Part shown: positions 19,713-24,207 of the stretch, one piece after another
Layout of the letters: every line of letters starts with the position of its first letter
Numbering within the stretch: position 1 is the first letter of the stretch
Origin: Caldivirga sp.
GTDB lineage: Archaea; Thermoproteota; Thermoprotei; Thermoproteales; Thermocladiaceae
DNA length: 64,000 nt
Reading direction: 5' to 3'
Assembly: GCF_023256255.1 (NCBI RefSeq)
Contig: NZ_JAGDXD010000014.1
Coordinates: 1 to 64,000, forward strand
Program-made: the position numbers and the translations under genes
The notes under the pieces: generated by a model
What the model saw: only the letters and a program-made list of their open reading frames with translations
The model's database searches: none
Told to the model about the DNA's origin: nothing

Positions 19713-20051
19713 ATGCAGCCTACTGACCCAATAGTGGTGGAGTATATTAATGAGTTAATGAGGAGGGGGCTTAGGCAATATGTTGACTTAATAATACCTA
19801 GTGATGATGTGTTTAAGATTGGTAGGGAGTATGCTGAATCTAGAAGGAGCTACGCTGAACTGCTTGATTCGCTCACACAGTACGTTAAGCCTAGGATTAA
19901 TAGTGATGTTGCTGAACACGTGGTTAAGAACTACATCGGTAACGTTAACGTTGACTACGTTGACATAGTAGCTAGGAGCGTGGCTAAATGGTACATTAGC
20001 ATACTTAGGTTATTCAACGTAGTCTCCTTCTCTGGATACCAGCCTCCTTAA
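19713..20051 (+). CDS. Hypothetical protein, 112 aa
   Basis: Not recognised. The ATG at 19713 has a TATA-like GCTATAAG (19680-19687) about 29 nt upstream. The sequence is soluble and alpha-helical with many charged residues (EYINELMRRGLRQYVDL, AEHVVKNYIGNVNVDYVDIVARSVAKWY). It overlaps the convergent gene at 20010-20921 by 42 nt at their 3' ends. Its codon use matches neighbours. Confidence 0.6.
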   Translation: MQPTDPIVVEYINELMRRGLRQYVDLIIPSDDVFKIGREYAESRRSYAELLDSLTQYVKPRINSDVAEHVVKNYIGNVNVDYVDIVARSVAKWYISILRLFNVVSFSGYQPP

Positions 20052-20921
20052 CCTACTCATCCTTAGGCCTGACTCATTAATCAGCTTCTCAAGGTAGTCA
20101 AAGCCCATTAAGATCACTGAGTCCTTTACCCTAACCCCATTACCGCCCGTTATTATTAACACAGTGTTGAATTTCCTATAGTATGGGTCCCACATAGTGG
20201 GCTTACCCTGAATCCTAATTAAGTACCTGCCGAAACCGTAAACCTCAAGGTCACTTACTCTCTTGCCTGGAACAACCAAGTAGCCCATTCTCCTTAATCC
20301 ACTCCAAAGCATGTAAGTAACCTCCATGCTTCTAACTGGCCTCACAGACCTACTGCCAATTAGGCTTACTGACCCTAGTATTTTCTTTAAAGATTCCCCA
20401 GCAATCATGATCCTGTAGTACTTTGGTTCATTTAAGTAGTCAACCTTAAGTTTAACAGCATCCTTAAGGTTATTATCAAGGGACACAACCATTGGGTTAA
20501 TGCCCATACTCCTAAGCCTACTAATCCTGTATAGGTCCTTTCTACTCGCCTTATACCCAATTATAATCACTGGCGCGTGGAAAGTACCCATACTTATTGT
20601 TAAGTCTACCGGCTGGCCGTAGAGCATTGGTGAAACATACCCAGATAAGCCCATTTCCTCAAGGGATTCCCTGAGTAGAAATGGCAAAACCTTCTCTATA
20701 CTACCCCTCCCAGGCATGTGTTGATTTATATTACTCATAAGTCTACTCATTATTCTTTCCCTATAGGATAATACTAGGCGCTCTGCTAACTCATCAGAGT
20801 ACCCACTCTTCACGTAGTAGCCTAACTCACTTACAACATCATCAACTACATCCTCAGGAATATCATCAACCATAACCATTTCCTCCACTAATTTCCTAAC
20901 CTTCAACTTAAGCTCCCTCAT
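20010..20921 (-). CDS. Hypothetical protein, 303 aa
   Basis: Not recognised. 303 aa from ATG 20919-20921. The N-terminal third is helical and charged (KLKVRKLVEEMVMVDDIPEDVVDDVVSELG). The middle and C-terminal parts alternate beta-strand and loop with many Arg residues (SLIGSRSVRPVRSMEV, VRVKDSVILMGFDYLEKL), which suggests a nucleic-acid-binding or nuclease-like fold, but no catalytic motif is clear. It converges on the 112-aa gene and diverges from the methyltransferase at 20992. Confidence 0.6.
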   Translation of the reverse strand: MRELKLKVRKLVEEMVMVDDIPEDVVDDVVSELGYYVKSGYSDELAERLVLSYRERIMSRLMSNINQHMPGRGSIEKVLPFLLRESLEEMGLSGYVSPMLYGQPVDLTISMGTFHAPVIIIGYKASRKDLYRISRLRSMGINPMVVSLDNNLKDAVKLKVDYLNEPKYYRIMIAGESLKKILGSVSLIGSRSVRPVRSMEVTYMLWSGLRRMGYLVVPGKRVSDLEVYGFGRYLIRIQGKPTMWDPYYRKFNTVLIITGGNGVRVKDSVILMGFDYLEKLINESGLRMSRLRRLVSREGDYVE

Positions 20922-21758: not shown

Positions 21759-22964
21759 CTAATACCAAATGCCAAGTATATCAACCTCAATGGGAATAAC
21801 CTTAACACCCAATGTACCTGATATCGATGGTTCTGTCCCCTCACTCGTAATAAACCTTCTTATACTGAAGCCACCTTGCGTATCTATTATTAATTCAAGG
21901 ACGCTGCCGGATACAGGGATCACCTTTAAACCGTAAATTAACTTAACCCTTTTACCTCTACCCATGCTTTGCCTAATCTGCCTATTACTGAAGTAATCCT
22001 CAAGGCTCTTTAACTGTTCATCATTGACATTACCGTATAATTTGACTAGGACCCTGTAAACCCTTCTTAATTCACCCGCCTTGGACTTAATTTCCCTAAC
22101 CTGAACCTTACCTGCCGCCTTAAGGTTAAGTAGCTGAACTCCATTTTTGATAATAGTACCTTCACGTATATTTCTGCTTAGTGGCCTAATAGCCTCAATA
22201 ACCATTGGCCTTCCTAACCCAAGCACCCTCACCTCAGGTCCCTCAACACCAGCGAAGTGAAGCACCACATCCAGTGGCTTTAACTCAATTACAGTTTCCT
22301 TAGCAACACTTGCCACTGAAGCATCCCCAACCTGTGGTATTCCTCTAATTAATTTCCTATACCTAGCCTCAATGTAGACTGGCATTACTTCAACACTTAC
22401 TGAACCATCACCGGTATTTACCCTCACCACTACGTCAGGATTCAACCTACTATACCTTTTACCTAGGCTATCCGCCAATGCTTTACCAATCATCCTGTTT
22501 ATCTCCCTCTTAATCGATTCACTGCTTGTTATGCCTAATTCCGTTGATACCTTAACCTCATTATCAATTATCATTCTACTAACCACCGAACCCACTTGAA
22601 AACTACCGAACTCAATACCCTGTTCATTAATTATCTCCTTAACCCTATTAACAATACTATTAATATTGATTTTATCAAATAGATTACCGCAGATGAAGCA
22701 TGACTGTGGTTCAACAGCCTTACCTATTCTCCTCATGAATAATAAGCTCCCCCTATGTCCACTTCTAGCTAGTGCAGTGAGGACACCCTCATCATACGTA
22801 CCGGCTGAGGAGTTTAAAGCCTCCATGAAAAGCACGTTCTTTATAGACCTACCACGCTCCTCATTACTAATCATGAAGCCCCTTGAAGCAAATAACCTAC
22901 CTAAGCAGTGGTCACATAATGGGTACTTTAACAGCGCTTTCTTAGCCTCCTCAATTATACTCAT
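21759..22964 (-). CDS. pus10: Divergent Pus10-family tRNA pseudouridine synthase with altered catalytic motifs
   Basis: 401 aa from ATG 22962-22964. The N-terminal zinc-binding part has CDHCLGRLFA and CFIC, followed by the THUMP-like region. The C-terminal half aligns by eye with the Pus10 catalytic domain (PVYIEARYRKLIRGIPQ, VLGLGRPMVIEAIRPLSR). Canonical Pus10 reads GREDVDVRMLG, with the catalytic Asp after Glu. Here it is GVEGPEVRVLG, with Gly at residue 242. The later GGTYxKEF motif is GGFSIRRF, so the conserved Tyr is also lost. Pus10 makes pseudouridine 54/55 in archaeal tRNA. This copy may be inactive, a binding protein, or changed in chemistry. Confidence 0.82.
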   Translation of the reverse strand: MSIIEEAKKALLKYPLCDHCLGRLFASRGFMISNEERGRSIKNVLFMEALNSSAGTYDEGVLTALARSGHRGSLLFMRRIGKAVEPQSCFICGNLFDKININSIVNRVKEIINEQGIEFGSFQVGSVVSRMIIDNEVKVSTELGITSSESIKREINRMIGKALADSLGKRYSRLNPDVVVRVNTGDGSVSVEVMPVYIEARYRKLIRGIPQVGDASVASVAKETVIELKPLDVVLHFAGVEGPEVRVLGLGRPMVIEAIRPLSRNIREGTIIKNGVQLLNLKAAGKVQVREIKSKAGELRRVYRVLVKLYGNVNDEQLKSLEDYFSNRQIRQSMGRGKRVKLIYGLKVIPVSGSVLELIIDTQGGFSIRRFITSEGTEPSISGTLGVKVIPIEVDILGIWY

Positions 22965-23043
22965 ATGTGTTAATCGTGAATTAGGCTAAGTTAATAACTA
23001 TTCCCGAAACTTAGGTTCAAGCCTATTTCCGTTTGTCCCTACA

Positions 23044-23052
23044 CTTTTATTT
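23044..23052 (+). promoter_or_regulatory. TATA-like box for the candidate ncRNA
   Basis: CTTTTATTT lies about 18-26 nt before the predicted 5' end of the folded RNA at about 23066-23070. No protein start follows at leaderless distance. Confidence 0.45.
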
Positions 23053-23065
23053 CAATCATGGTTGA

Positions 23066-23184
23066 GTGTGGGGGGCTTGGTCCTCGGCCACATGTTCATC
23101 ACGTATGGGTCATGGGGTCCAGTTGAGGCCAATGGCATGGGCCTCCCATCTCCACCATCACCCCCACACCTTAGGGCAGTGCCC
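23066..23184 (+). ncRNA. Candidate structured non-coding RNA of unknown class
   Basis: A GC-rich island between the divergent Pus10 and kinase-like genes. A 9-bp helix closes it: GTGTGGGGG (23066-23074) with CCCCCACAC (23161-23169). Inside, TTGG-CCTC (23077-23085, one bulged T) pairs with GAGGCCAA (23125-23132). Within that, CC-CATG (88-94) pairs with CATGGG (23111-23116). A further hairpin ATGGG-CCT-CCCAT spans 23137-23149, with TGG/CCA outside it. A small hairpin GGGC-AGT-GCCC follows at 23174-23184. A TATA-like box sits correctly upstream. I see no tRNA T-loop, no box C/D, no SRP or 5S motif, and no RNase P region I. The 3' end is uncertain. Confidence 0.5.
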
Positions 23185-23463
23185 ACATCGGTGCGGGAGA
23201 TCAGTAAAACCAAACACGAACAAATATGAAAAGACTTCTATTAACGTAAAAGGATTCAGCCCATTCATCACTATACTTAATCCTACATTCCGCCATCTAC
23301 TTATTCTAACTTTTCCCACTCTATAGTGCACTCTCAGAAATACGCAATATCTATGTAAGTGAATAAGAGCCTTAACCTAAATCTAAGGGAAAACACCTAA
23401 AAATAAAGATATTCATAGTAGCTAAGAAAAACATGTCGTGGCTTTAAAAACCACCAATTAAGA

Positions 23464-24207
23464 GTGTTACTAGTGTACGAATTGTTCATTAAATTATGCA
23501 GTAATATTGGCTGCCCAAGTAGTTATAGTGAGGAAGTACTTAAGCAATTAAGGAATCTAGGAGTTACTGAGTTGGTTAATGAGGGGCCTGTTGAATTCAT
23601 AGGTGGCCTTAGACTACTTGGTAAGGGGCAGAATAGCTTCGTTTTTAAGTGCAAAATCAGGAACCTTGAAGGCTACTACGCATGTAAGGTAAGGAGGTTT
23701 GATTCATCAAGGCCTAGCCTACTTAATGAGGCGTACAGTGTTAAGTTAGCTAATGAGGTTAACGTGGGTCCTCTTTTAATTAACTACACCAGTGATGTCT
23801 TAGTTATGGAGTACGTTAACGGGGTACCACTAGGTGCATATCTTAAGCAGGCTGATTACGATTCAATTAAGGCAGTGGTTAAGGATTTATTAATGCAGGG
23901 TTTTAAACTTGATTCAATAGGGTTAATTCACGGTGAGTTAAGTAGGATTCGGGAACACGTAATTATTAGTAATAGGGTTTATATAATTGACTTCGAGAGT
24001 GCAAGTAGGCTTACTAAATCAACAACTAATGTTACTCAACTCACTAGTGCACTCATGCTTAGTAAAGGAACAATACAGGCTAAGGTTAAGGAGGCCCTTG
24101 GCCTGCGGGACGCCAATACGTTAATTAAACTACTTCAATTATATAAGGTTAAGCCAAGTCAAGATTCATTTAACCTAATTCTTAGATTCCTAGGCTTACT
24201 AAATTAA
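23464..24207 (+). CDS. Archaeal Ser/Thr protein kinase-like protein (COG2112-like)
   Basis: 247 aa from GTG 23464. A GTG at 23473 suits the TATA-like CTTTAAAAA near 23440 slightly better. Kinase landmarks run in order: LGKGQNSFVFK (Gly loop), YYACKVRR (ATP Lys), VLVMEYVNG (hinge), GLIHGELSRIREHVII (catalytic loop) and VYIIDFESAS (metal loop). The catalytic HxD is HGE here, and DFG is DFE. I recall HGxLS..HV as a trait of this archaeal family, so activity cannot be excluded. A 40-residue helical N-terminus precedes the fold. The phosphorylation target is unknown. Confidence 0.72.
   Translation: MLLVYELFIKLCSNIGCPSSYSEEVLKQLRNLGVTELVNEGPVEFIGGLRLLGKGQNSFVFKCKIRNLEGYYACKVRRFDSSRPSLLNEAYSVKLANEVNVGPLLINYTSDVLVMEYVNGVPLGAYLKQADYDSIKAVVKDLLMQGFKLDSIGLIHGELSRIREHVIISNRVYIIDFESASRLTKSTTNVTQLTSALMLSKGTIQAKVKEALGLRDANTLIKLLQLYKVKPSQDSFNLILRFLGLLN

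Follow-up and report, generated by a model that had tools for sequence, protein, structure and literature searches.

Pus10 is regarded as the archaeal enzyme that makes pseudouridine (Ψ) at positions 54 and 55 of tRNA. To our knowledge, all known pseudouridine synthases require a catalytic aspartate. What, then, does a Pus10 protein do in an archaeon where this residue appears to be missing? The question is raised by a gene of Caldivirga sp., found in a window of 64,000 nt (assembly GCF_023256255.1, contig NZ_JAGDXD010000014.1, positions 1-64,000). The open reading frame is uninterrupted and encodes a 401-residue protein (Table). Its match to TIGR01213, the NCBI equivalog for archaeal Pus10, is full-length and scores 246.2 bits, above the curated cut-off of 200. 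The Pfam domains Pus10_THUMP_arc and Pus10_C are both recognized. No other Pus10 homologue occurs in this 97%-complete assembly. Among named relatives, Caldivirga sp. UBA161 is the nearest, with 85% identity in the Pus10-like protein.

Table. Features of the Pus10-like gene and its upstream region (coordinates in the 64,000-nt window)
Feature	Position	Strand	Evidence or remark
Pus10-like protein without catalytic residues, 401 aa	21759..22964	-	TIGR01213, 246 bits; PF22023 and PF21238; AlphaFold2; PDB match 2v9k
First CxxC (C17, C20) of N-terminal Zn-type module	22905..22916	-	Invariant in 55-sequence alignment
Second CxxC (C89, C92)	22689..22700	-	Invariant in 55-sequence alignment
THUMP domain, residues 115-183	22416..22622	-	PF22023, E 2.7e-17
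Catalytic-fold domain Pus10_C, residues 197-397	21774..22376	-	PF21238, E 1e-16
Gly242 codon GGA, position of the catalytic Asp	22239..22241	-	Alignment and codon position
Ser367 codon AGT, position of the conserved Tyr	21864..21866	-	Alignment and codon position
Shortened thumb loop QSMGRGKRVKLIYG, 14 residues	21930..21971	-	Canonical loop: 22 residues, 9-10 basic
Probable promoter element TTTCGGGAATAGTTATTAA (also given as TTCGGGAATAGTTATTAA), 5' of the gene	22991..23009	-	Sequence comparison

An earlier note on this DNA had claimed that the catalytic aspartate is replaced by Gly242 and that the conserved tyrosine motif is lost. Both readings hold. The segment GVEGPEVRVLG starts at residue 239, and GVEGPEVR pairs without gap with GREDVDVR of human PUS10 (PDB 2v9k). 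The segment GGFSIRRF starts at residue 364, which places Ser367 at the tyrosine position. In archaeal Pus10 as modeled by TIGR01213, by contrast, the aspartate belongs to a GREDxD motif and the tyrosine to GGxYxKE; both residues are present in all 63 canonical homologues aligned. The Gly242/Ser367 pair is also found in four other Caldivirga genomes, that is, in all five examined. Further changes affect the active site: Lys369 and Glu370 are both replaced by Arg, and a second Asp by Glu. The thumb loop carries 4 basic residues and departs from the canonical TPxRxxRR... loop. Full-length homology, the Zn-type CxxC motifs, the THUMP domain, the PUS fold, the single gene copy and vertical descent are shared with archaeal Pus10, from which the Caldivirga protein differs by its shortened thumb and forefinger loops and by a genome devoid of TrmY (see below). 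An aspartate located elsewhere in the active site would have been another way to keep activity, but the only aspartates conserved in the catalytic domain in Caldivirga are D323 and the family-wide D395. A glutamate might also act in place of the aspartate, so that the protein would still be a pseudouridine synthase: Caldivirga shares Glu241, next to the lost residue, with canonical Pus10, and Glu375 and Glu378 are invariant in the genus. Given the aspartate requirement of the known synthases, the concurrent alteration of Tyr, Lys, Glu and thumb loop and the lack of any new conserved Asp near the site, we consider this highly improbable. The inferred lack of pseudouridine synthase activity in the Caldivirga protein is well supported.

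The gene has nevertheless been maintained. Because the Gly/Ser pair recurs in five Caldivirga genomes, pairwise dN/dS values over the whole gene are 0.11-0.18, and the predicted structure is well folded, the gene is neither an error nor a decaying relic. The AlphaFold2 model, calculated with 55 sequences, has a pLDDT of 94.6 and its best Foldseek match in the PDB is human PUS10 (2v9k, E 7.8e-24, TM 0.68). The idea of a functionless gene heading for loss would fit the catalytic half, which diverges faster than in canonical groups. It has little chance of being correct in view of the low dN/dS, the fold, the reading frame intact in all Caldivirga examined and the upstream element, which is conserved in two other Caldivirga and is probably a promoter element; moreover, homologues without Asp are kept throughout a Sulfolobaceae-like family (f27). 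Constraint is unevenly distributed along the protein, as seen from mean percentages of identity for the N-terminus, the THUMP domain and the catalytic half, respectively. Comparisons between canonical groups give 43/36/42 (f3-g2) and 39/31/38 (f3-class). Against canonical f3, the values are 41/36/31 for Caldivirga and 44/33/32 for genus g4; against f14, they are 39/34/24 for degenerate f21 members and 35/32/18 for f27. Within groups, identities are 74/67/56 in g4 and 82/75/72 in Caldivirga, to be compared with 59/58/71 in g2 and 50/49/57 in f14. Therefore, in lineages without the aspartate, the RNA-binding half has been kept while the catalytic half has been relaxed.

The Pus10 tree places the canonical genus g2 in one family group with g4, g3 and Caldivirga; there, Caldivirga and g3 are neighbors (89/79), and g4 is next to the pair (83/80). 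The Cbf5 tree also supports the grouping of g3 with Caldivirga (100/99). The trees thus show vertical inheritance of the protein and its decay in place. In g4, pus10 still adjoins the L21e and DUF655 genes, a neighborhood known for archaeal pus10 (PMC2584109). The sister genus g3 has lost the tyrosine and the thumb loop and has kept TrmY. Its aspartate is possibly retained in R-DSEAR, where one residue is deleted. This genus could be an intermediate or a sign that TrmY loss is a separate event. The frame breaks seen in two g3 genomes (G012 and G013), one NN gap and one single frame shift, are probable assembly problems. Likewise, the apparent pseudogene of one g4 genome (G016) was not used; stops and frame changes occur in this 67%-complete draft, where TruD also carries a stop.

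The earlier note had presented the loss as a feature of one odd protein. The loss itself was correctly spotted, but it is genus-wide and has several origins in Thermoproteota. In an alignment of 109 Pus10 proteins, comprising the 63 canonical ones, the residue in the aspartate column is Gly for Caldivirga; g4 has Pro, Ala, Val or Ser, f27 has Pro, Ala or Arg, and genera g111 and g113 of f21 have Glu. Gly or Ser also occurs in f22, f18 and f60, each time in a single member. If the groups are monophyletic, the aspartate would have been lost at least three times, in Thermoproteales, f21 and f27. A third state is observed in f15, f48, f46, f54, f61 and f62: the aspartate is kept in nearly all members, the tyrosine is replaced, mostly by Pro, and there is no canonical thumb loop. 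Among these, the Nitrososphaeria-like proteins of f15, f48 and f46 (L147, L148, L150, L152, L197 and L198) keep the aspartate as GGEDxxS; no TrmY was found in these three families. We take g4 to be a Vulcanisaeta-like genus, with Vulcanisaeta distributa and V. moutnovskia, and f21 to be Acidilobus/Caldisphaera-like, with Acidilobus saccharovorans and Caldisphaera lagunensis. The f27 family presumably includes Sulfolobus acidocaldarius, S. tokodaii and Metallosphaera sedula, and one of the compared Caldivirga genomes is presumably that of Caldivirga maquilingensis. If these identities hold, thermoacidophily is common to the named lineages that lack Asp, and a link with acidophily is a lead. Thermoplasma, also an acidophile, has Ψ54, which counts against a strict rule.

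The Sulfolobaceae-like family resembles Caldivirga in that the Pus10 N-terminus and THUMP domain are kept, the aspartate is lost and TrmY is not found. Its catalytic half is however far more eroded, with 18-19% identity in proteins of about 360 residues, whereas Caldivirga retains the full Pus10_C fold. One such relative without Asp (L172:1471-2541) is modeled by the NCBIfam equivalog NF011139, named "pseudouridylate synthase"; the Caldivirga protein, with 93.8 bits for a curated cut-off of 428, falls below this model. The predicted f27 structure has a Pus10-like fold (pLDDT 88.6, pTM 0.58) and again 2v9k as best match (E 3e-8). In the control set, the Sulfolobus acidocaldarius protein matches TIGR01213 below the curated cut-off. 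Because a Cbf5 segment also matches TIGR01213 weakly, the full-length alignment is better evidence that the f27 protein is a Pus10. In S. acidocaldarius tRNA, position 54 is thiolated, and tRNA-Val carries a methylthio U/Ψ54, the authors reporting no Pus10 (PMC7668247).

Which other enzymes could act on the T-arm? U54 and U55 are encoded (GTTCRA) in all 28 readable tRNA genes of this genome. Cbf5, with an intact GTLDP motif containing its Asp, is present in 5/5 Caldivirga. It is the only TruB-type synthase found in this genome, and a second Pus10, the other candidate that the earlier note had in mind, is not found there; the remaining weak matches to the Cbf5 model cover its C-terminal part only. 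TruD is present in four of the five Caldivirga. Synthases of the RluA/RsuA type are missing from this genome, and a TrmA-type m5U54 enzyme was found in none of the 45 genomes of the order.

TrmY, the m1Ψ54 methylase, acts on Ψ54 and therefore requires an enzyme that produces it. TrmY (PF04013) was found in none of the five Caldivirga and none of the 12 g4 genomes, and in all of the 28 remaining genomes of the order. In the phylum sample, 130 of 397 genomes encode it. Among genomes with a weakly scoring Pus10, a hand count gives one with TrmY out of about 142, namely G012 of genus g3. In family f21, the genera with canonical Pus10 scores have TrmY; none was found in g111 or g113. The genome that we take to be Aeropyrum pernix combines a canonical Pus10 score with TrmY, and TrmY is also present in the presumed Ignicoccus hospitalis. 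In the latter species, m1s4Ψ54 is known (PMC7912444). Many genomes with canonical Pus10 are likewise without TrmY, so that TrmY absence alone is weak evidence. A strict coupling of Pus10 and TrmY was rejected, as g3 has kept TrmY after losing the tyrosine and the thumb loop. A Fisher p-value for TrmY against Pus10 class was set aside, since it takes no account of relatedness among the genomes. Most Thermoproteales except Caldivirga and g4 have two TrmY-like (DUF358) genes (L015:2758-3237 and L060:1462-2016), of which the shorter directly adjoins pus10, after SRP54. In f3, each covers a different half of the TrmY model, so that together they may form a two-subunit enzyme.

We favor the view, with a probability of about 60%, that the Caldivirga protein is a selectively kept Pus10 pseudoenzyme, non-catalytic on tRNA, with Ψ55 made by Cbf5 and Ψ54/m1Ψ54 not made. 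The earlier note had offered an inactive protein, another enzyme or an unmodified tRNA as alternatives; a combination of the three now seems preferable, the protein being inactive, Cbf5 being available for Ψ55 and Ψ54/m1Ψ54 being probably absent because TrmY is gone as well. The pseudoenzyme would retain the Zn-type N-terminus and the THUMP domain, the parts by which Pus10 holds tRNA. Most likely it works on tRNA in a non-catalytic way, for instance as a tRNA-folding chaperone or as an adaptor for another enzyme. We infer tRNA binding, this role and the takeover of Ψ55 by the H/ACA enzyme Cbf5; there are precedents. Human PUS10, although it has a catalytic Asp and cytoplasmic activity, offers one parallel. 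Like the protein proposed here, nuclear human PUS10 binds tRNA without pseudouridylation activity, and PUS10 takes part in miRNA processing in a role without catalysis (PMC9957541). In Thermococcus kodakarensis, growth suffers more from the loss of pus10 than from that of cbf5 (PMC6138745). Cbf5 forms Ψ55 in vitro, its guide-free activity being aided by partner proteins (PMC7912444). In Sulfolobales, the Ψ35 synthase (TruD/Pus7) is similarly a stand-alone tRNA enzyme that is deficient, a guide RNA being used instead (PMC4652768). The enzyme and the site differ, and the takeover of Ψ55 in Caldivirga is by comparison conjectural.

A close variant is that the Pus10-like protein delivers Cbf5-Nop10-Gar1 to the tRNA T-arm, Ψ55 formation still depending on it. 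Cbf5 as sole TruB-type synthase found and the help given by partner proteins to guide-free activity (PMC7912444) agree with this scheme, and the location of pus10 and cbf5 on separate contigs of this genome speaks against it; we regard it as unlikely, though worth keeping in mind. Much less credit is given to a pocket rebuilt for another substrate or reaction. The near fixation of the motifs GVEG(P) and GGFS(I/V)RRF in Caldivirga points to some constraint on the former pocket. However, the aspartate is replaced differently in each lineage and constraint is loosest in the catalytic domain, a pattern more in line with loss than with a new chemistry common to them.

Some observations count against the pseudoenzyme reading. 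The methylthio U/Ψ54 of S. acidocaldarius tRNA-Val indicates some modification of position 54 where Pus10 is degenerate, and the g3 case indicates that the link between TrmY loss and Pus10 decay is not strict. An extension to thermoacidophilic Thermoproteota is put forward tentatively, at somewhat less than even odds: Pus10 may have become a non-catalytic tRNA binder at least three times independently, with Ψ54/m1Ψ54 abandoned and Ψ55 left to Cbf5, and Sulfolobus, from which Pus10 has been reported missing, would carry a pseudo-Pus10.

A relation of the gene to a neighboring structured RNA (about 23060-23200), left undecided in the earlier note, was rejected. This region has no Rfam match and is no stabler than shuffled sequence (z -0.65 and -0.56). 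It overlaps a GC-rich element of 150 bp (23007-23153) between pus10 and a kinase gene. A second copy, 82% identical, adjoins a tRNA-Ser gene elsewhere in this genome (L085:1042-1190), and the corresponding spacer of other Caldivirga lacks the element. The element is a dispersed repeat or a small mobile element. The adjoining gene (23464-24207) encodes a RIO/Bud32-like kinase and keeps this place in all Caldivirga examined. On the other side, a 303-residue protein without Pfam or NCBIfam match (20010-20921) is also conserved in position in all of them.

In the literature searched, we found no paper describing an inactive crenarchaeal Pus10; an earlier mention is possible in the core papers (Roovers 2006, Gurha 2008, Blaby 2011, Joardar 2013, Fitzek 2018). 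Automatic annotation labels the Caldivirga and Sulfolobaceae-like forms as pseudouridine synthases despite the missing catalytic residues. The names given by the NCBI models look wrong, and that of NF011139 is probably misleading. Deletion of pus10 reportedly failed to give a mutant in Haloferax, and it slows growth in Thermococcus. If an inactive Pus10 has indeed been kept repeatedly, it would be a natural experiment that separates the tRNA-binding role of the protein from its chemistry. The identity of the Ψ55 maker in these archaea, and a role of Pus10 other than modification, would then become directly testable.
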